DNA of 39,605 bases. Source: Pseudomonadota bacterium. GTDB taxonomy: Bacteria; Desulfobacterota; Syntrophorhabdia; Syntrophorhabdales; Syntrophorhabdaceae. The DNA lies in the NCBI GenBank assembly GCA_026388315.1, contig JAPLKA010000088.1, positions 1-39,605 on the forward strand, read 5' to 3'. Positions 3,493 to 38,561 of the stretch are shown here, one piece after another; within the stretch, counting starts at the first letter, position 1; each line of letters begins with the position of its first letter. The translations under genes were made by a program, and so were the position numbers. Below the pieces are notes generated by a model. It searched no databases. It had not been told where the DNA came from and saw only the letters and a program-made list of their open reading frames with translations.

Positions 3493-3498
3493 GTGTTT

Positions 3499-3741
3499 AT
3501 GGTTACAAGAACCTTGAAACTCGATATTTCTTTTCAGGAACTTCTTGCCGTTGTAGATCAGCTTGAATTGGATGAAAAAATGTTTCTCAAGAGGAAACTG
3601 GACAGGGAAAAGGTTCCTTCATGGCAGGAACGTTTTGGAAGAGCGCTTCAACAGCTTGGTAATAAAAACAAAAGGTTTACAACAAAGGAAGTGCTAACCG
3701 ATGTCGAACGGGCCATTTCCGATGTAAGAACAAATGTATAG
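3499..3741 (+). CDS. Putative antitoxin of a PIN-type TA module
   Basis: An 80-residue, charged, probably helical protein. ATG 3499 is preferred over the GTG at 3493 because TAAGGAGG at 3486-3493 sits at ideal spacing before it. The N-terminal part (LKLDISFQELLAVVDQLELDEKMFLK) is typical of small antitoxins that accompany COG1569 PIN toxins; the tail is basic and likely wraps the toxin. Its last codons overlap the toxin start by 8 bases, the usual arrangement in which antitoxin is translated first. Its function is inferred mainly from this partner; no DNA-binding motif is obvious. Confidence 0.7.
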   Translation: MVTRTLKLDISFQELLAVVDQLELDEKMFLKRKLDREKVPSWQERFGRALQQLGNKNKRFTTKEVLTDVERAISDVRTNV

Positions 3742-4165
3742 AATTAAGGCTGTTTTAGACACTAATATTATTTTCAGTGGTATCGTCTCGCCAAAAGGCT
3801 CACCAAGAAAACTTCTCGAATTAGCAAAAGAAGAAACATTCAAAGTTGTAACCTCGATTTTGATAAATCGGGAAATCCTTGAAGTTCTCCACAGGGGTCA
3901 CATATACACGAAATATGGTCTCAATGAGGCTATCATAGATGACATTGCTTCTTTTCTTTATGAAGGTGCAATTTTAACAGAAGATTCGTATGAAATTATG
4001 AAAGTCAAAAGAGATCCGGAAGATGATAAATTTATCAACTGTGCCATTGAAGGGGAAGCAGACTACATAGTTTCCGGCGATGGGCATCTGCTCGATCTGA
4101 AACATTATAGCGGCATCCAGATTATTAATGTAAATAGCTTTTTGAGAATATTGCAAAAAGCGTAA
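3734..4165 (+). CDS. PIN-domain toxin (COG1569-type putative RNase)
   Basis: This 143-residue protein has the PIN nuclease layout: AVLDTNIIFSGI near the N terminus (first metal-binding Asp, residue 8), an ILINREIL segment with the conserved Glu, and KRDPEDDKFINCAIEGEADYIVSGD, carrying the DPEDD and SGD acidic clusters. Such proteins are Mg-dependent single-strand RNases that inhibit growth when released from the antitoxin. It overlaps the preceding antitoxin gene by 8 bases and is probably co-translated with it. Length is typical and all acidic residues are present, so it is likely active. The RNA target cannot be read from sequence. Confidence 0.85.
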   Translation: MYRIKAVLDTNIIFSGIVSPKGSPRKLLELAKEETFKVVTSILINREILEVLHRGHIYTKYGLNEAIIDDIASFLYEGAILTEDSYEIMKVKRDPEDDKFINCAIEGEADYIVSGDGHLLDLKHYSGIQIINVNSFLRILQKA

Positions 4166-4300: not shown

Positions 4301-4960
4301 ATGGCGACAAAGAAAACAGTTGAAAGTCCAGAGTTTATGTATCTGCCTCTGGAGAGCATTATTGTGGAAGAACAGATTCGCTCAGGGATCGACACGGAGA
4401 GTGAGTCCTTCAAGGCCCTCATGGAATCCATTAAAGACAAAGGTGTCTTAGAGCCCGTCCTTGTAACACCAAAAGACGGCAAATACCTCCTCCTCTGCGG
4501 GGAGAGACGCTTTCTTGCTGCCCAGAAGCTGGGGCTCCCAACAATACCGGCGCGCATACTTGATGCGATCACCCAGAAGGATGAAATCCTTGCCTTCCAG
4601 CTAACAGAAAATCTCCAGCGGGAAGACTTGAATCCAATGGATCAGGCAAAGGGCATATTGGCATATATTCAGGCTAAACATCCCGATAAAGGATATGATG
4701 TAGATGGTGTAATGAGTGACTTAATAAAATACGATAGAAAACCCGAACTTGTGTCAGACGAATTAGTCGCAACTGTTGCGACTACTCTTCAAATCTCCGG
4801 AAAGTCAACAAAGACGCTATTTAACGGACTTTCACTTCTAAAACTTCCCGATGAGATTCAGGCAGCAATTCGGGCAGAAACACTCCCCGTTTCTCAAGGA
4901 TATCTCTTCGCCGCTAACCTCGAATGTCCTGATCGTGTGAAGGCAGTGAATAGTAGATAG
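4301..4960 (+). CDS. ParB/Spo0J-family protein, C-terminally truncated
   Basis: This 219-residue protein starts at ATG 4301 behind GGGGGAG (4290-4295). Residues 15-115 are a ParB N-terminal domain: CGERRFLAA (66-74) is the GERRxxA motif and ENLQREDLNPMDQA (103-116) the second conserved box. Residues 150-205 look like the start of the central HTH domain (SGKSTKTLFNGLSLLKLP). Family members usually run to about 290-320 residues. Here the frame ends in a run of TGAATAG-like repeats, so the C-terminal dimerisation part is missing. No parA is nearby, so a role in chromosome partition is doubtful; plasmid or accessory origin is more likely. Codons 155-161 contain a perfect 21-base palindrome (4764-4784), and relics of the same segment recur at 34.0, 35.9 and 37.5 kb. 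Confidence 0.75.
   Translation: MATKKTVESPEFMYLPLESIIVEEQIRSGIDTESESFKALMESIKDKGVLEPVLVTPKDGKYLLLCGERRFLAAQKLGLPTIPARILDAITQKDEILAFQLTENLQREDLNPMDQAKGILAYIQAKHPDKGYDVDGVMSDLIKYDRKPELVSDELVATVATTLQISGKSTKTLFNGLSLLKLPDEIQAAIRAETLPVSQGYLFAANLECPDRVKAVNSR
4764..4784. repeat. In-frame palindrome inside the ParB-like gene
   Basis: The arms TAGTCGCAAC and GTTGCGACTA flank a central T (10-base arms). The palindrome lies in frame and encodes roughly VATVAT. It belongs to a family with different arms but the same symmetry found between 34.0 and 37.6 kb. Confidence 0.9.
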
Positions 4961-5062
4961 TGAATAGTAGATAGTGAATAGCTAAAAAGGCAGAAAATAT
5001 GAAATGCCGTGAATGGCAAATAGGTTTTTGACTAACGACTGTTCACTAACGACTATTCACTG
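4935..5062. repeat. Degenerate TGAATAG repeats and inverted partners
   Basis: AGTGAATAGTAGAT recurs nearly in tandem from about 4947 to 4982. CTATTCACT, its complement, appears at 5052-5060, after an ACTAACGACTGTTC/ACTAACGACTATTC duplication. The repeats make up the truncated end of the ParB-like gene and the spacer before aspA. No gene is present. Confidence 0.6.
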
Positions 5063-12667: not shown

Positions 12668-14400
12668 AATATAATCTTACCCTTTTTCACGTCATACACA
12701 CCAGAGACAGTAAGCCTCAACTCTACGATAGAGGTAAACGTCAAAAAACCGATTGTCCATAAGGGATCGTCGAGTGTGCTGCCTCTTTCTCTGAAAACTT
12801 TGTTGCCTTTACGCAACTCTTCGGCAAGCTCTCCTATGCTCAGGCTGGACATGGTAGCGCCGTTGGGGAGGGGCAAAACGTACAGCACCTTGCCTTTATC
12901 TACAAGCACGATTCCGCCGCCTATATTCAGGGCTGTATTGGCTGCAAGCTGCATATCCGTATCGTCAAAACCCGCAACAAGCAAGCCATGTGTTTCGTGT
13001 GCAATCGTAGAGGCAAAACCACCGATGTCTGCGCCAATTCCCCTTACAAACCCCCTGCCCCACTTCTTTTTTTCCCTTCTCGTATAGAAGATTTTTCTTA
13101 TATCATGCTCCTTCTGAGGCATTATAAGCTTCGCATCCAGGAGAACCGGCATATCAATCCTCCGTGTAACTGTCCTGTCCACAACGTCAATGACGGGGAT
13201 TGTCTCTTCACCTTTCCATTCGATTGATAATTCATGCTTCTCGATATTTTTAAAGACAAAAGGATTATATGCATTCCCTATTTCCGGGAATGGAGTTGAT
13301 TTCACTATTAATGCACCTTCCTCAGCCACCAGCCTTCCCCTCTCAATAACCTTCACCGGCGTTGGCTTCTTGAGGTCTTCAAGGAGCAGGATATCAGCAA
13401 TCCTGCCCGGAGCAATACTTCCCACCTCGCCTTCCATACGAAAATACCGCGCCGGATTCAACGTGGACATTTTAATGGCATCAATCGGGTCGAGGCCGAA
13501 ATTGATAGCCTCTTTTATAACAAAATCCATATATCCTCTCTCCAATAAGTCGCCCGCAAAGATGCCATCAGAAACGAGCATCATGGAATCCTTGGGCAAC
13601 TCATTCATCACAGGGCAGAGTTTTTCAAAATCACTCCTGATAGAGCTGTGTCTGACCATCGTATACAATCCAAGACGGACCCTGTTCCGCAAATCGGATT
13701 CCCGAATCGATTCATGGCAGGAGGTAATCCCTGCTGCAACAAGGGTATTGAGCTTGTCATAGGAAGCGCCGAGCGTATGCCCCTCAACATTTTTTGACAA
13801 AGACCTCGCAATAAGGATTTTTTCAAGGATACTATCTTCGTTATCCAATATCCTTACATATGGCGACAATTCACTGATGGAAACACACTCCCGGTAACGT
13901 GCAAAGAGTTTCCAGATTTCATGAATGGAAAAAAGCTCCCCGCCTTCAATATCGGGGTAAGGAGGATACGCTGCCGGTACACCCCACAAAAATTTCACCG
14001 CAAACTTATCACTTGTTTTTAAAACTTCGATAAACCCTGCCACACCAATTGAATTAATCATATCATGGGCGTCTGAAAATATCGTGGTAGCCCCTCTCGT
14101 TACCACAAAATCGCCAAACGTCGATGGATTGTAAAAAAGGTCAGCATGGCCGTGGGCATCTATATAGCCCGGCACAGCGACATATCCCTTAGCATCGGCA
14201 ACAATTGTTTCATCGCCTATAAGCGGCTCTTTTTCTCCAACATATGCAATCCATGACTTATAAACCCATATATTTCCTTTAAACATACTGCCACTGAAAA
14301 CATCCAGAATCTCTGCATCTTTCAGGATTAAGTCCGGTGGCATTTCACCGTTGGAAACATGTATTAATCCTTTCACATCCTTCAACGTCTTCTCAATCAT
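12664..14400 (-). CDS. Adenine-deaminase-like amidohydrolase, divergent
   Basis: This 578-residue protein has the overall plan of COG1001 adenine deaminases: an amidohydrolase core with PGYIDAHGHAD near residue 95, SDAHD near 130, GHTLGASYDKLN near 210, LGLDPIDAIKMSTLNPA, and the C-terminal adenine-deaminase domain ending VELRLTVSGVYDV. Several hallmark positions differ from what I recall for true adenine deaminases: HGHADLF replaces HVHIESS, AHETHG replaces AHDSHN, and PNGATMS replaces the usual IAGLMS. The substrate may therefore differ. It overlaps the PBP1A gene downstream by 4 bases. Metal binding is plausible, since the paired histidines remain. Confidence 0.75.
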   Translation of the reverse strand: MIEKTLKDVKGLIHVSNGEMPPDLILKDAEILDVFSGSMFKGNIWVYKSWIAYVGEKEPLIGDETIVADAKGYVAVPGYIDAHGHADLFYNPSTFGDFVVTRGATTIFSDAHDMINSIGVAGFIEVLKTSDKFAVKFLWGVPAAYPPYPDIEGGELFSIHEIWKLFARYRECVSISELSPYVRILDNEDSILEKILIARSLSKNVEGHTLGASYDKLNTLVAAGITSCHESIRESDLRNRVRLGLYTMVRHSSIRSDFEKLCPVMNELPKDSMMLVSDGIFAGDLLERGYMDFVIKEAINFGLDPIDAIKMSTLNPARYFRMEGEVGSIAPGRIADILLLEDLKKPTPVKVIERGRLVAEEGALIVKSTPFPEIGNAYNPFVFKNIEKHELSIEWKGEETIPVIDVVDRTVTRRIDMPVLLDAKLIMPQKEHDIRKIFYTRREKKKWGRGFVRGIGADIGGFASTIAHETHGLLVAGFDDTDMQLAANTALNIGGGIVLVDKGKVLYVLPLPNGATMSSLSIGELAEELRKGNKVFRERGSTLDDPLWTIGFLTFTSIVELRLTVSGVYDVKKGKIIF

Positions 14401-22901: not shown

Positions 22902-23021
22902 AATGCGAAGAGTGCAAGCTTTAATCCTGCCGAAGGCGGGACAAGGTGAAATGCGAAAGGTGAAAAGTAATAGGTAAATTACGAATTACGAATTACGAAT
23001 TTTTACAAAGGAGATGCAAAC
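22902..23021. repeat. Short-repeat spacer between birA and coaX
   Basis: Holds one copy of a dispersed hairpin word, TTTAATCCTGCCGAAGGC plus GGGACAA (22920-22944), also at 29802-29826 and 34249-34273. It is followed by three tandem ATTACGA units near 22978-23000. The AAAGGAG ribosome site for coaX is at 23007-23013. Confidence 0.6.
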
Positions 23022-29770: not shown

Positions 29771-29801
29771 AGCGGAGAGCGGGTATCCGATATCCGTACG
29801 G

Positions 29802-29826
29802 TTTAATCCTGCCGAAGGCGGGACAA
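29802..29826. repeat. Dispersed hairpin word, copy 2
   Basis: TTTAATCCTGCCGAAGGC plus GGGACAA, preceded by CCGTACGG, in the spacer before the methyltransferase. CCTGCC and GGCGGG form a 6-base stem (one G-T pair) with a GAA loop. Confidence 0.75.
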
Positions 29827-29846
29827 TGGGGGGGGAGAAGGCAACG

Positions 29847-34017: not shown

Positions 34018-34153
34018 ATCCTCAACTATCCGAAATCTGAAAGCGTATCGGAGGCAATGATGGAAACAGTTTCCGTCATTGTTGCACAGCATGAAAATCA
34101 ACAAGGACGCTTCTTAACGGGCTATTGCTCTTAAAACTTTTTGATGAGATTCA
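34018..34153 (+). pseudogene. ParB-like gene relic, copy B
   Basis: Translated with one frame correction it gives SEAMMETVSVIVAQH, then KSTRTLLNGLLLLKLFDEIH. This matches residues 152-190 of the ParB-like gene at 4301 (SDELVATVATTLQ, then KSTKTLFNGLSLLKLPDEIQ). A base appears lost near 34091 (TGAAAA where TGGAAAA would restore the frame). The 136 bases are nearly identical (about 3 substitutions seen) to 35865-36000. A 27-base palindrome with one mismatch lies at 34055-34081. Confidence 0.75.
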
Positions 34154-34248
34154 TAGGGCAATCCAAAATGAAGGCAGTGGATGGTGGATGGCAATCAGAA
34201 AACATCGAAAAACATCGAACCTTGAACAGCTTTTTGCAATCCGTACGG

Positions 34249-34273
34249 TTTAATCCTGCCGAAGGCAGGACAA
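34249..34273. repeat. Dispersed hairpin word, copy 3
   Basis: TTTAATCCTGCCGAAGGC followed by AGGACAA, preceded by CCGTACGG as in copy 2. One base differs from copies 1 and 2 in the stem. Confidence 0.75.
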
Positions 34274-34316
34274 TCGATATATTCCATACGGTTCTATTTC
34301 GGTCCTATTTTTCAGG

Positions 34317-34805
34317 TTACTCCCCTGCCAATTTACAAACATCATTTATGAATGTATCTGAGAGCCACAGACCTGAGCTTTGAAGTTTTCCAAGGTTTTC
34401 TCGAACTGATTTTACTATTCCCTTTCTTTTGGCCAGAACGATTATCCCTACTGTTCCGGTAAAATTACATCCCAACGATTCGGCACATCTCCTTGCTTGT
34501 AAATCATCTATAATAGCCCAACAATCGGGATTCTTGTATACGTAAGAAAGAACAGCATTTTCGCCTTCACCTAAATCCCATGCTGCTATAGTTGGATTAA
34601 TCGGTATGTTTTTGATCGTCTTCAACCATTTCCGGGAAAGCACAGTGTTTATACCAAAGTCAACAGCGCTTTTTGCCGTGACCTCCTTCTTGACGTTATC
34701 GGGTACAAGAATATCTTTAAACAAGGCCGGTAATAATTCAGAAAGCTCGCTTTTAGATAGACAGATCAGTGGTGATGCATTTAAAATCACACGACTAATC
34801 GGCAT
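34317..34805 (-). CDS. DUF3368 PIN-like toxin
   Basis: A 162-residue PIN-like nuclease of the DUF3368 family. RVILNASPLICLSK at the N terminus (the first acidic residue is Asn, as is common in this family), DLGEGENAVLSY with Glu, and AIIDDLQARRCAESLGCNFTGTVGIIVLAK with the conserved DD and GTVG are all in place. It probably cuts RNA. It overlaps the UPF0175 antitoxin gene by 11 bases on the minus strand. No truncation is seen. Confidence 0.85.
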   Translation of the reverse strand: MPISRVILNASPLICLSKSELSELLPALFKDILVPDNVKKEVTAKSAVDFGINTVLSRKWLKTIKNIPINPTIAAWDLGEGENAVLSYVYKNPDCWAIIDDLQARRCAESLGCNFTGTVGIIVLAKRKGIVKSVRENLGKLQSSGLWLSDTFINDVCKLAGE

Positions 34806-35052
34806 TTTGTAACTCTTTTCCTATATTGTCAGCCGTATATTGAAACGGGGAAACCCCAAACCTTGCCAATGAAAAAACGAATTCTGACCGGGTCAGGTCA
34901 GCTATTTCAGCCGCCTTTTCCTGTGATACTATTCCCATTTCATACCACTTTACAGCAGCAGCCAACCGCATTTCTGCGGCGAACTCTGGTGGACTCTTTC
35001 TTATTGCAGAAAATGCACCGTCGGGCATATCGAGCTTTAAGGCATATGACAT
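34795..35052 (-). CDS. UPF0175 antitoxin
   Basis: An 85-residue helical protein: PEFAAEMRLAAAVKWYEMGIVSQEKAAEIADLTRSEFVFSLARFGVSPFQY is the UPF0175 (COG2886) HTH pattern, ending in the usual aromatic-rich toxin-binding tail. It binds DNA and neutralises its DUF3368 partner, which starts within its last codons. CAGGAGG on the minus strand (35058-35064) precedes the ATG. A TTAGTATACTAA palindrome at 35089-35100 is a likely operator. Confidence 0.88.
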   Translation of the reverse strand: MSYALKLDMPDGAFSAIRKSPPEFAAEMRLAAAVKWYEMGIVSQEKAAEIADLTRSEFVFSLARFGVSPFQYTADNIGKELQNAD

Positions 35053-35088
35053 TTTGGCCTCCTGTTTCTCACTATTTTCACAGCTTAC

Positions 35089-35100
35089 TTAGTATACTAA
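35089..35100. promoter_or_regulatory. Candidate autoregulatory operator of the UPF0175 module
   Basis: TTAGTATACTAA, a perfect 12-base palindrome 37 bases upstream of the antitoxin start; such sites are often bound by antitoxins. Confidence 0.4.
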
Positions 35101-35196
35101 AAAAGCACGGCAAAATAAAGAAAGGGAAACGACAAAAAGTTTCAAAAGGGAAATCGCGCGATGCAAGGTCTGTTTTGATTTTCCCGATATTTAAAC

Positions 35197-35221
35197 AATG
35201 GTTACAACTGTTGTAACCATT
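35197..35221. repeat. Palindrome D
   Basis: Arms AATGGTTACAAC and GTTGTAACCATT around a central T. The flanking frame reads MVTTVVTIFSGRS, resembling LVATVATTLQISGKS of the ParB-like gene. Confidence 0.9.
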
Positions 35222-35489
35222 TTCTCTGGCAGGTCTCCGGGTCTCCGGTTATAGCTTCTGTCTGTATCGTGCCCGGTCAGTTTCAGAGAATATTTTTTTG
35301 CCGCCCGCTATCGCTCGACAAATACTGACAAAAGATAATATGTTTTGCCAGTCGACGACAATGCCGCCTGTCAAATATTCAGCCCTAACGGGCGAATATA
35401 TCTTATCATTTCACAGGCAAAAACAGCACTTTAAGCCATGAAATTGGCCATTTTCCACGTCTGTATTTCTTTTCCGAAGATTTCAGCAA

Positions 35490-35510
35490 TTGCGGACAAT
35501 GTGTCCGCAA
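35490..35510. repeat. Palindrome E
   Basis: Arms TTGCGGACA and TGTCCGCAA with an ATG spacer. Confidence 0.9.
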
Positions 35511-35599
35511 ATTCCCTCCGATGCACAGCCATGTCCAGTAATGCAAAAAAAAGACCCCATTTCCTTCATAAGAGGCGGTCCTTTTTTAGCTATCTCCAA

Positions 35600-35624
35600 A
35601 TTCTCCGCCACAGTGGCGGAGAAT
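35600..35624. repeat. Palindrome F
   Basis: Arms ATTCTCCGCCAC and GTGGCGGAGAAT around a central A. One frame reads FSATVAEN, a ParB-like word. Confidence 0.9.
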
Positions 35625-35745
35625 CCATAAAACAAGGACTGGACTATGTTTGCAAAGATTAAAGAGCTCTCTAAAACTGTTGTAGAAACCTGCCTCACAA
35701 TCTTAAGCCCATCACCCGGTCCAGACTTTCTGGTCCGGCCCCTGA

Positions 35746-35770
35746 ATTTTCAGAAACAGTTTCTGAAAAT
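35746..35770. repeat. Palindrome H
   Basis: Arms ATTTTCAGAAAC and GTTTCTGAAAAT around a central A. A frame reads ETVSENVSEHLLTI. Confidence 0.9.
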
Positions 35771-35864
35771 GTTTCAGAACATCTTCTCACAATTTGCAGT
35801 TCTGGAAATAGTTGCCATGAATCAGGCTTCATGATAAGTGAAATAAGTTAAGAATGTCCCGGCT

Positions 35865-36000
35865 ATCCTCAACTATCCGAAATCTGAAAGCGTATCGGAG
35901 GCAATGACGGAAACAGTTTCCGTCATTGTTGCACAGCATGAAAATCAACAAGGACGCTTATTAACGGGCTATTGCTCTTAAAACTTTTCGATGAGATTCA
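35865..36000 (+). pseudogene. ParB-like gene relic, copy C
   Basis: Near-identical to 34018-34153 over 136 bases. It holds a perfect 27-base palindrome (35902-35928, 13-base arms). The downstream GGCAGCAATCCGAAGTGAAAA continues to match the ParB-like gene (EIQAAIRSE). The translated frame carries the same one-base loss as copy B. Confidence 0.75.
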
Positions 36001-36032
36001 GGCAGCAATCCGAAGTGAAAACCCGTGAAGCG

Positions 36033-36470
36033 TTATCCGTGAAGCGTGAAGTTCTCAGCCACTTCTTGTTTCAGAAAAAGCTTCAAAAAGTCTGCTGGTG
36101 AAATAACCCGAACTCCTTGGCATAAGTTGGAAGGAAAATGGACCTGATTGCCGGTAACCAAGTACTCTACGCTACCCATAAGGGCTACCTCAAGAAACGG
36201 TTCGTCGTCGGCATCGGGTAAAGAAGTGAGAAGTGGAGAAGATGCTACGGTTTGGCCATTACGTTCAACATAATCAAGGATGGTGACAATCTTATCTTCC
36301 GCAAACTGAAACTTGGGACGCCTTAATACCTCATGGTATTCGGACAAGATACGGGCATCAACACACAAAGTCAGGTTGCCGGAGGAAATCATCCGAACAA
36401 TGTCACCACATGCACCGAACGGCGATAGAAGACCTGCAACCAGAACATTCGTATCGAGGACGATCTTCAT
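36033..36470 (-). CDS. PIN-domain toxin (COG1569 type)
   Basis: A 145-residue PIN nuclease: KIVLDTNVLVAGLLSPFG (metal-binding Asp), SEYHEVLRRPKF (conserved Glu) and LPDADDEPFLEVALMGSVEYLVTGN with the DADDEPFLE acidic cluster. The normal third Asp of VTGD is Asn here (VTGN), a common variation in this group. It overlaps its antitoxin gene by 4 bases (ATGA) on the minus strand. It is of the same general type as the toxin at 3734 but diverged. Confidence 0.87.
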   Translation of the reverse strand: MKIVLDTNVLVAGLLSPFGACGDIVRMISSGNLTLCVDARILSEYHEVLRRPKFQFAEDKIVTILDYVERNGQTVASSPLLTSLPDADDEPFLEVALMGSVEYLVTGNQVHFPSNLCQGVRVISPADFLKLFLKQEVAENFTLHG

Positions 36471-36754
36471 CGTTGTCGTTTTTCCCTCACTGTCTTGATT
36501 TCGGCGTCGATCTCCTCCATAGTGATTCTGTCTGTGCCCTGCACTGTGGACTGACGCTGAAGGCTCATAACAGCCTCGACGGCACGTGCCTGGCGAAACG
36601 CAGAGAGCGACTCTTCCAGGTTTGATTCATTAACCGCCGATAAAATAGCAATGGGCCGACCGTTACTGGTAACAATTAACTCCCGTTCCGTCGGGAGATT
36701 CTTCCAAACCTCGGCAGATTTCCCTCGTAAGTCACGTACGCTTATGAATTTCAT
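36467..36754 (-). CDS. Phd/YefM-type antitoxin
   Basis: A 95-residue protein. MKFISVRDLRGKSAEVWKNL and ELIVTSNGRPIAILSAV are the Phd/YefM N-terminal DNA-binding fold; the C-terminal part is a long charged helix that binds the toxin. It precedes the PIN toxin with a 4-base overlap. The upstream promoter TTGACT (36808-36803) and TACACT (36786-36781) carries GTGTAC words at 36771-36776 and 36782-36787, likely the operator for autoregulation. Confidence 0.85.
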   Translation of the reverse strand: MKFISVRDLRGKSAEVWKNLPTERELIVTSNGRPIAILSAVNESNLEESLSAFRQARAVEAVMSLQRQSTVQGTDRITMEEIDAEIKTVREKRQR

Positions 36755-36770
36755 AACCTAACCTCCAATT

Positions 36771-36808
36771 GTGTACTAACAGTGTACACCATTGTCACTC
36801 ATAGTCAA
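36771..36808 (-). promoter_or_regulatory. Promoter/operator of the Phd-PIN module
   Basis: Minus strand TTGACT (36808-36803), 16 bases, TACACT (36786-36781). GTGTACAC (36782-36789) and GTGTAC (36771-36776) overlap the -10 region. Confidence 0.5.
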
Positions 36809-36828
36809 GTTTATTCTTCACATAACGA

Positions 36829-36993
36829 GCCTGTAGAAAAACCCCTGACTGCGCCCTAACTGCGATTAAGGGGTGGTTTTCTGGAGTCATCTGACCCTTC
36901 CCAACCATGAGATCTCCGGTTGTGGCGCATTCTGTGAGGTCACTCTTTTCCACATCCCATCAGAAAATCTGCTCGGGGACTTTTTCTACAGGC
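36829..36993. mobile_element. MITE-like element with perfect 13-bp inverted ends
   Basis: GCCTGTAGAAAAA (36829-36841) and its exact complement TTTTTCTACAGGC (36981-36993) bound 165 bases without a transposase. Ends of this kind occur on some insertion sequences, so this may be a deletion derivative. No target-site duplication was found. Confidence 0.6.
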
Positions 36994-37489
36994 ACAACAT
37001 GAGCGTCAGCGAGATGCGCATAGTGCGGATTCGCTGCACGTACTAGTTGGGCAATTGTTCTTGTAAATCAATATGTTATCCTCAGCAAATGTCAATATTT
37101 CACCAACGTCCCCTTCGCTCCCCCCCTTCGCTCCCCAGCTCCTTCGTCGCCGGAAACCGTTATGCGAGTCGCGACTTCGAGCATTTCTTGGGACCCTACC
37201 TTCAGCCGGGTACTTGTGGAGGCACGACACGGGTGGCCCCGCGGCCAGTGCCGCGTCTGGGCCGGCCTGATTTGTTCGAAGCCGGGTACCCACTTGTGGG
37301 TGGACAAGTTAGAAGGCCGAACGGATGCTAACCGTTACAAGGGTAAGAAAGCACGACCCACTCACCGGGTGGGTGCCCCGGCAGAGAGCAAAACAGTGTT
37401 CCGGCCATACCGATAATGCTTTGGGACGTAATTGGACTTAAAGTGCTGTTTTTGGGGCAAATTGCAACAAAGAGGTATGATCCAAGGCA

Positions 37490-37650
37490 GTTGTTGACAC
37501 ATTGTCAACAACATCATAAATCTCTGTAAAGTCAATACTGGCCTTGCATAGAGCCATTTCACTTTTAAAACTATTTTCTGAGGAACCGTAACTCTCCGCA
37601 ACTGTTGCGGAGATTCTTAATATCATCGGAAAGTCAATACAGACGAAGGG
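37490..37650 (+). pseudogene. Tandem ParB-like relics J and K
   Basis: One frame reads VDTLSTT, stop, ISVKSILALHRAISLLKLFSEEP, stop, LSATVAEILNIIGKSIQTK. Both parts align with residues 152-185 of the ParB-like gene (ELVATVATTLQISGKSTKTL then SLLKLPDE). J contains palindrome 37490-37512 (arms GTTGTTGACA/TGTCAACAAC) and K contains palindrome 37593-37613 (arms TCTCCGCAAC/GTTGCGGAGA). Two in-frame stops mark it as decayed. Confidence 0.65.
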
Positions 37651-37759: not shown

Positions 37760-38257
37760 CTATTTTACTATGTTTTTAATTGAACTGATCGGTGAATAGA
37801 ACCCATATCCAACCATTTTATGTAATACTTTATCTGCTTCCTTATGATTTATAATGCTCATCTCTATGGATTTTATGAGAATTCCTATTGTACCGGTCAG
37901 CTTCACTCCCAATAAGCCTGCTTCTCTTCTTGCCGCCCTGTCGTCACAGGCAAAAACCAATCCTCGCAACTTAGCAACGGCAATACTGGACGACTCGCCG
38001 AAACCCAAGGATATTGAGAGAGACTCAAAAACAGTTTTTTCTTTGTCACTTAGCGTAATTTCTTTAAGCCAGCCATCTAACACAGCTTGTCGTATCCCGA
38101 CAAGCTTTCCGTGCCCCTGCATTATTCCTCTCATATTTTCCGCTGAAACGAAGTCGGTAATATAAGCAACATTGGAATACATCTTTTTTGGAATATAGAG
38201 AGAATCTGATAAGGCAAAGTTGCTCAAAACGCAATTATCAAAGATAATTTCAGGCAT
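37760..38257 (-). CDS. DUF3368 PIN-like toxin (second)
   Basis: A 165-residue protein of the DUF3368 family: EIIFDNCVLSNFALSDSL at the N terminus with the first Asp, LGFGESSSIAVAKLRGLVFACDDRAARREAGLLGVKLTGTIGI with the conserved DDRAAR and GTIGI. It overlaps its antitoxin by 8 bases on the minus strand. It is related to the 34317 gene but sequence identity is low by eye. Likely a complete RNase-type toxin. Confidence 0.83.
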   Translation of the reverse strand: MPEIIFDNCVLSNFALSDSLYIPKKMYSNVAYITDFVSAENMRGIMQGHGKLVGIRQAVLDGWLKEITLSDKEKTVFESLSISLGFGESSSIAVAKLRGLVFACDDRAARREAGLLGVKLTGTIGILIKSIEMSIINHKEADKVLHKMVGYGFYSPISSIKNIVK

Positions 38258-38561
38258 TCAACATATCCTGCAGGCATTCAGATGATTCCTGGATGTTAAT
38301 AGAAATGCCACGGTCTTTCAGATAAACTCTTAAGCTGACAATATCAATGCCGAGAATCTCTGAAAGCTTACCCAGACTGATGAAACCTTCTTTATATGCC
38401 TCAATAGATACCATTCTTCTGTGCTCAATAAGATCTTTCTTCATATAGGTAGTATCCAGTGCCTCCCTTACAAGCTCTCCAAGGGTTTTCCGGTTTTCCC
38501 TGGCATATAATGTAAGTTTCCCGTGCTGCTCATCGGTCAGCATAATATTAGTTCTCTTCAT
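38250..38561 (-). CDS. Antitoxin combining an RHH and a UPF0175-like half
   Basis: 103 residues. The first 40 (RTNIMLTDEQHGKLTLYARENRKTLGELVREAL) resemble a ribbon-helix-helix DNA-binding fold, and residues about 50-95 (SIEAYKEGFISLGKLSEILGIDIVSLRVYLKDRGI) resemble the UPF0175 helical part. GGGAGGATTAAG precedes the ATG. Two ATATGTGTAA words 12 bases apart (38575-38584 and 38587-38596) lie just upstream and are probable operator half-sites. Confidence 0.75.
   Translation of the reverse strand: MKRTNIMLTDEQHGKLTLYARENRKTLGELVREALDTTYMKKDLIEHRRMVSIEAYKEGFISLGKLSEILGIDIVSLRVYLKDRGISINIQESSECLQDMLNA

Follow-up and report, generated by a model that had tools for sequence, protein, structure and literature searches.

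In the chromosomal ParB/Spo0J-parS systems, a protein with a ParB_N domain bearing CTPase motifs and an HTH_ParB domain reads a palindrome with its recognition helix, and the site may lie within parB itself; a parS is reportedly present inside the spo0J gene of B. subtilis (Lin and Grossman 1998). N178 of Caulobacter ParB contacts parS, and Noc has a permissive lysine at the position of ParB T179 (PMC7383237). Noc and its NBS sites illustrate how ParB-type specificity can diverge between paralogues via a few HTH residues (PMC7383237, PMC8429893), KorB of RK2 is a ParB-type CTP clamp that works as a long-range repressor from operators (PMC11790492), and stand-alone ParB genes without parA have been surveyed among the orphan ParB-fold proteins (PMC12704722). 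Perfect inverted repeats within coding genes have been described in the mitochondria of Nematomorpha (PMC6649704). The ParB-like family described here resembles each of these systems in the respect just given, though in the case of KorB only through an inferred function.

The window, which is the whole stretch of DNA analysed (39,605 nucleotides of contig JAPLKA010000088.1), carries at 4764-4784 a perfect palindrome, TAGTCGCAAC-T-GTTGCGACTA, with arms of 10 nt around a single central base, 4774, which is the third position of codon Thr158 in the open reading frame 4301-4960. Eight palindromes with arms of at least 10 nt were observed in the window, compared with 0.35 expected from dinucleotide shuffles. 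The features of this locus are listed below; family residues are numbered as in L016, and after residue 61 one must be subtracted to obtain the number in the window protein.

4301 to 4960, plus strand: ParB-like gene copy, 219 aa, C-terminally truncated (Pfam ParB_N 2e-14, HTH_ParB 1.4e-5)
4499 to 4510, plus strand: GERR, CTP-binding C-motif, invariant or nearly so across the family
4607 to 4627, plus strand: ENLQRED, CTPase P-motif, nearly invariant across the family
4703 to 4843, plus strand: specificity cassette (extra helix and loop, palindrome, recognition helix), family residues ~136-182, swapped between copies as a unit
4764 to 4784, no strand assigned: 21-bp palindrome TAGTCGCAACTGTTGCGACTA with half-site TAGTCGCA, putatively bound by the product of this gene (no binding data)
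4808 to 4843, plus strand: recognition helix TKTLFNGLSLLK, with K171 (family 172) accompanying G at -5 and N175 (family 176) accompanying A at -3
4944 to 5062, no strand assigned: AGTGAATAGTAGATAG / TTCACTAACGACTATTCACTG repeat, which removes the C-terminal third of the ParB-like gene

A preliminary description of the stretch had placed the palindrome in frame in its one long ParB-like gene. The palindrome is indeed in frame, but the gene is not a long one, being a C-terminally truncated copy cut by the AGTGAATAGTAGATAG repeat, whose product has 219 aa versus ~312 aa in full-length paralogues. Site, recognition helix and CTPase motifs are kept and the C-terminal domain is lacking, so that this copy is probably not fully functional, a likely inference made from sequence alone. 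It serves as an entry point to the family rather than as its best example. The AGTGAATAGTAGATAG and TTCACTAACGACTATTCACTG repeats also border many other family members. Small genes that by eye resemble toxin-antitoxin pairs (PIN-type, Phd-like) adjoin the ParB-like gene and the relics described below (window 3493-4165, 34317-36754 and 37760-38561), and such neighbours are not consistent across the ParB-like copies. Short repeats, GTTTAATCCTGCCGAAGGCGGGAC, recur between genes at window 22910-22945, 29792-29827 and 34239-34274.

For a comparison at the nucleotide level, 85 unique paralogues from the window genome and four related genomes were aligned by protein, and their DNA was read at the place of the palindrome. 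All 85 copies have a dyad, T-N7-AC-N-GT-N7-A, centred on the same codon, that of Thr at family residue 159, with T at -10 (C in one copy), A at -2 and seven variable positions from -3 to -9; the full-length paralogue L016 carries TTGCCCCA. The variable positions are Watson-Crick paired in 589 of 595 cells, versus ~250 when the 3' letters are dealt anew, and the covariation score of the dyad is 0.905 versus 0.189 when shuffled, with as many as 58 distinct half-sites among the 85 paralogues. An explanation of the symmetry as a side effect of protein constraint is all but excluded by these data, since the same amino acids encoded by random synonymous codons would give a mean of 1.2 perfect palindromes versus 79 observed among the 85 copies. 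The same holds for an mRNA hairpin. The covariation is stem-like, as such a hairpin would require, but only 2 of the 595 cells are G.U pairs, which RNA would tolerate, the centre is a single nucleotide, and an RNA structure would not covary with residues of the recognition helix.

According to an AlphaFold model (mean pLDDT 75), the codons that hold the dyad specify the first helix of the HTH (154-167); an extra helix (135-147) lies before it, and the turn GKS and recognition helix (171-182) come next. The preliminary description had assigned the palindrome to a linker between the ParB N-domain and the HTH, at a position that may tolerate change, and neither statement held, the palindrome encoding the first HTH helix and not a linker. 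It had also proposed that homologues without a palindrome at this place would speak against a self-encoded target; none was found inside the family, down to members of 40% identity, and the palindrome is missing at the same place only in canonical ParBs outside the family. An alternative is that a mobile palindromic or MITE-like element became inserted in frame, as in the case of the Rickettsia palindromic elements. Many dispersed pieces of ~150 bp with palindromes, as well as a second type of repeat with two palindromes, are in favour of this origin. Against it, the dyad forms an ungapped part of a conserved HTH helix and stands on the same codon down to 40% identity, and every copy's own sequence is matched to its helix, which makes a mobile element very unlikely.

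The matching of dyad and recognition helix follows a residue-base code. At -3, A goes with Asn at residue 176 in 45 copies, C with Arg in 38 and G with Ser in one, L029 being the one exception among the 85; N or R at 176 is thus paired with A or C in 83 of 84 cases. A rule that holds in 85 of 85 links base -5 to residue 172: the base is G whenever Arg or Lys stands at 172 (48 copies) and never G in the remaining 37. Further out in the dyad, bases -7 to -9 show associations with residues 144, 148 and 151. Five pairs of half-sites differ at -3 alone, and in all of them residue 176 switches as predicted; the full-length copies L008 (half-site TTGCTAAC, R176) and L107 (half-site TTGCTAAA, N176) have half-sites that differ at this base only. 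Among 40 further copies that had played no part in deriving the code, all intact ones with N or R at 176 obey it, and the 172 rule is followed in 26 of 29. Exceptions are L029 (R with A), L128 (S with G), L291, L297 and L193. In the alignment made here, family residue 176 corresponds to N178 of Caulobacter ParB and 177 to T179.

Whether shared descent alone lies behind the association was assessed on a tree of the N- and C-terminal domains. Residue 176 and base -3 each undergo 29 changes on it, and the supported independent pairs are concordant in 14 of 14 cases for 172/-5 and in 13.7 of 14 on average for 176/-3. Both point changes and exchanges of whole cassettes enter this count; a short tree restricted to the cassette leaves just three supported pairs, and the result is not significant. 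An internal control is provided by decayed copies, in which site and helix are as close to each other as in intact genes. Those with N or R at 176 obey the code in 17 cases and violate it in 17, versus 83 and one in intact genes (p = 2.5e-10). The code has therefore been lost in decayed copies despite the same linkage, and selection on intact genes appears to keep site and reader matched. Such selection is likely, and the matching of reader and site in the family very likely, both being inferred from sequence alone and the matching without binding data. Purifying selection is strong on the N-domain (dN/dS 0.11) and weaker on the cassette (0.37).

Decayed cassettes and other palindromes of the window are the following.

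34018 to 34172, plus strand: decayed cassette relic, frameshifted, with a palindrome at 34055-34081 having one mismatch (TGATGGAA/TTCCGTCA)
35137 to 35259, minus strand: decayed cassette relic with a perfect palindrome at 35197-35221 (TGGTTACA); its recognition helix is no longer cognate
35490 to 35510, no strand assigned: palindrome TTGCGGACAATGTGTCCGCAA in relic DNA
35600 to 35624, no strand assigned: palindrome ATTCTCCGCCACAGTGGCGGAGAAT
35746 to 35779, no strand assigned: two overlapping palindromes, TTTTCAGAAACAGTTTCTGAAAA and TTCTGAAAATGTTTCAGAA
35865 to 36022, plus strand: decayed cassette relic, 94% identical to 34018-34172, with a perfect palindrome at 35902-35928 (TGACGGAA)
37490 to 37512, no strand assigned: palindrome GTTGTTGACACATTGTCAACAAC in a relic
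37593 to 37613, no strand assigned: palindrome TCTCCGCAACTGTTGCGGAGA in a relic

The earlier claim that relics elsewhere carry palindromes was thus correct (SATVAE at 37603, TTVVT at 35209 and ETVSV at 35915). Another dispersed repeat, found at L244:12440-12540 and 13380-13490 and at window 35600-35780, contains two palindromes of the same design ~67 nt apart (TTTTCAGAAACTGTTTCTGAAAA, TTCTCCGCAACAGTTGCGGAGAA) and no evident ParB reading frame.

A set of 44 decayed cassettes, several of them at window 34018-37613, was assembled after two spurious matches had been excluded. Their flanks are ~75% identical to the nearest gene and their frames are often broken, and 302 of 308 pairs are kept, with 40 of the 44 palindromes perfect. 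No intact reader was identified in the window genome for most of the relic half-sites. This persistence of the palindrome in relics is a point against self-targeting, since self-reading does not explain it. It is possible that other proteins still bind the relics or, alternatively, that hairpin-templated repair perfects the arms. Template switching at quasipalindromes is a known process (PMC7202029, PMC8794818), and the symmetry as a whole might be ascribed to it, linkage then making site and helix look matched. Such a mutational origin would account for perfect palindromes in dead copies and for simultaneous changes in both arms. It predicts no position-specific code between amino acids and bases, however, and relics that are equally linked have lost the code, so that as a full explanation it is unlikely. 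Hairpin-templated repair may still be the origin of new perfect sites, and could also let both arms of a working site change together; both possibilities remain conjectural.

The sites of individual genes are almost private. With up to one mismatch, the window site is found at three places genome-wide: the window gene, the paralogue L002 and a pseudogene. For L017, L005 and L024 the only occurrence of the site lies in the gene concerned, and the L011 site has a single occurrence and, in addition, a mismatched version in one relic. These counts bear on a further explanation, in which the dyads would serve in trans as parS-like stations: the proteins would bind ~100 dispersed sites and organise or silence the chromosome, the in-gene copy being one of many. 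There are 104 distinct sites in the sampled DNA of the window genome, some of them clustered (window 35197-37613; L244), and decayed copies retain perfect symmetry, as this explanation would have it. Nevertheless, the sites of the window gene and of four paralogues occur only once or almost once, in their own gene, and most relic half-sites have no identified intact reader in the genome; use in trans is possible but rather unlikely.

Reader and site are exchanged together as one cassette, a conclusion strongly supported by sequence. In L013 and L102, a stretch of ~270 bp upstream of the gene (-359 to -90) is 96-100% identical and the N-domain 76-96%, but identity drops to 40-49% at codons ~136-165, and their dyads are different; the cassette has been replaced at a locus that for the rest is mostly 75-100% identical. 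Conversely, in the pairs L001/L002 and L003/L004 the cassettes are near-identical, while the rest of the genes has diverged and the flanks are unrelated. No terminal repeats of transposons were seen around intact genes when the flanks were checked by eye.

The window genome (3.8 Mb, 131 contigs) has 95 matches to the ParB-like protein, ~20 of them near full length and the rest fragments, and the copies are scattered over many contigs. The family is present at E <= 1e-30 in 6 of 46 genomes of the same order, with at least 34-41 matches each in the window genome, G002, G005 and G016, five in G010 and one in G011. Named records with relatives are metagenome-assembled genomes that carry the labels deltaproteobacteria, Proteobacteria, Syntrophobacterales or Syntrophus and come mostly from sediments (Lac Pavin, Alinen); from these labels we infer that the bacterium of the window is of Syntrophales type. 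Plasmids and viral contigs gave no close relative. A search with a covariance model built on the palindrome gave 133 strand matches in the window genome and 113, 102, 73, 20 and 7 in five relatives bearing the family; of nine other genomes without the expansion, at least eight had no match at all and G017 had two.

Membership of the ParB/Noc CTPase superfamily is indicated by a ParB_N domain with GERRxxA and ENxxR motifs, by NCBIfam parB_part and HTH_ParB scores above cut-off, and by ParB, Noc and KorB as the top Foldseek matches of the AlphaFold model. The linked parA of a canonical ParABS system was not seen, no ParA being among the most frequent Pfam matches in 76 neighbours. No partner gene recurs among them either, each of their 97 Pfam families being present in three neighbours at most. 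Nor is there a single conserved 16-bp parS of the TGTTTCACGTGAAACA type, the 21-bp dyads having 58 different half-sites, and the Noc threshold was not reached either (nucleoid_noc 76.7 bits versus a cut-off of 315). We regard the family as hyper-expanded, stand-alone ParB/Noc-type proteins of Syntrophales-type Desulfobacterota with conserved CTPase motifs, for which CTP binding, hydrolysis and clamp sliding are inferred. Two members, at L144:97-697 and 994-1906, are in tandem, with different palindromes and matching helices. Five copies (L026, L028, L029 and, in G002, C247:3691 and C37:1265) have no N-terminal CTPase domain and all begin at the same place (PMDQAKG, family residue 111-114), which could point to a second form of the gene or to a recombination breakpoint.

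The preliminary description had suggested a self-encoded, parS-like target of the gene's own product, and this is supported as the best reading, in the absence of binding data. Since the recognition residues change in step with the palindrome of their own gene, each protein very probably recognises its own gene; private sites, a residue-base code and the loss of this code in decayed copies together imply that each gene very probably encodes its own parS-like site. Self-targeting as a whole, the palindrome being a binding site within the reading frame of its own reader, is therefore likely, the binding itself being inferred. According to this model, a dimer would bind the dyad inside its own gene and, by analogy with ParB, Noc and KorB, the last of which provides the model for the inferred function, would close with CTP as a clamp and slide over its own locus. 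The simplest and most likely outcome would be repression of the gene's own transcription, and different cassettes would insulate sister copies from each other. A promoter operator was considered and rejected, the own half-site being absent from the 400 bp upstream in 63 of 63 genes; it was not found within 600 bp downstream either. Repression would therefore have to act ~470 bp inside the gene. Without transcription or CTPase data, we hold autorepression by the in-gene dyad to be slightly less likely than not. We lean, by a small margin, towards a bolder reading in which each copy is self-addressed, with the target in the codons of its reader and the two swapping as a recombinable cassette and diversifying, so that one chromosome would hold dozens of ParB-parS pairs, orthogonal to each other and each confined in its action to its own gene. 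Such a family could even behave as selfish DNA selected to escape its own siblings, which we mention only as a possibility.

The family amounts to a naturally occurring collection of dozens of proteins that read DNA, each stored together with a target that is very probably its own, so that a residue-to-base code for the ParB-type HTH can be read from genomes. If confirmed, it would supply many orthogonal ParB-parS pairs (such pairs are used for DNA labelling; PMC11109969, PMC11798528) and would show a route to new binding specificity when reader and site travel together. It also raises the question of what a chromosome gains, or pays, from dozens of ParB-like proteins each recognising only itself.

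In comparison with known systems, canonical ParB-parS relies on one conserved 16-bp parS near oriC, together with ParA, whereas the family described here has dozens of stand-alone copies, whose 21-bp sequences are individual and have an odd 1-nt centre and whose HTH is preceded by an extra helix and loop. Noc-NBS represents one switch between two specificities, versus 58 half-sites in 85 copies and a site in the reader's own gene. KorB has operators across the plasmid and KorA as a partner, while no partner gene has been found here. The survey of orphan ParB-fold proteins, when searched by term, does not mention palindromes, copies or Syntrophus lineages, and the palindromes of Nematomorpha belong to another lineage and are much longer, with no matching DNA-reading protein in the abstract of that paper. 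No description of dozens of copies, each with its own matched site in HTH codons, was found in the open-access literature searched. What is known, then, is ParB-parS and one parS inside spo0J; what is apparently new is a family whose members carry differing, matched sites in their own HTH codons.
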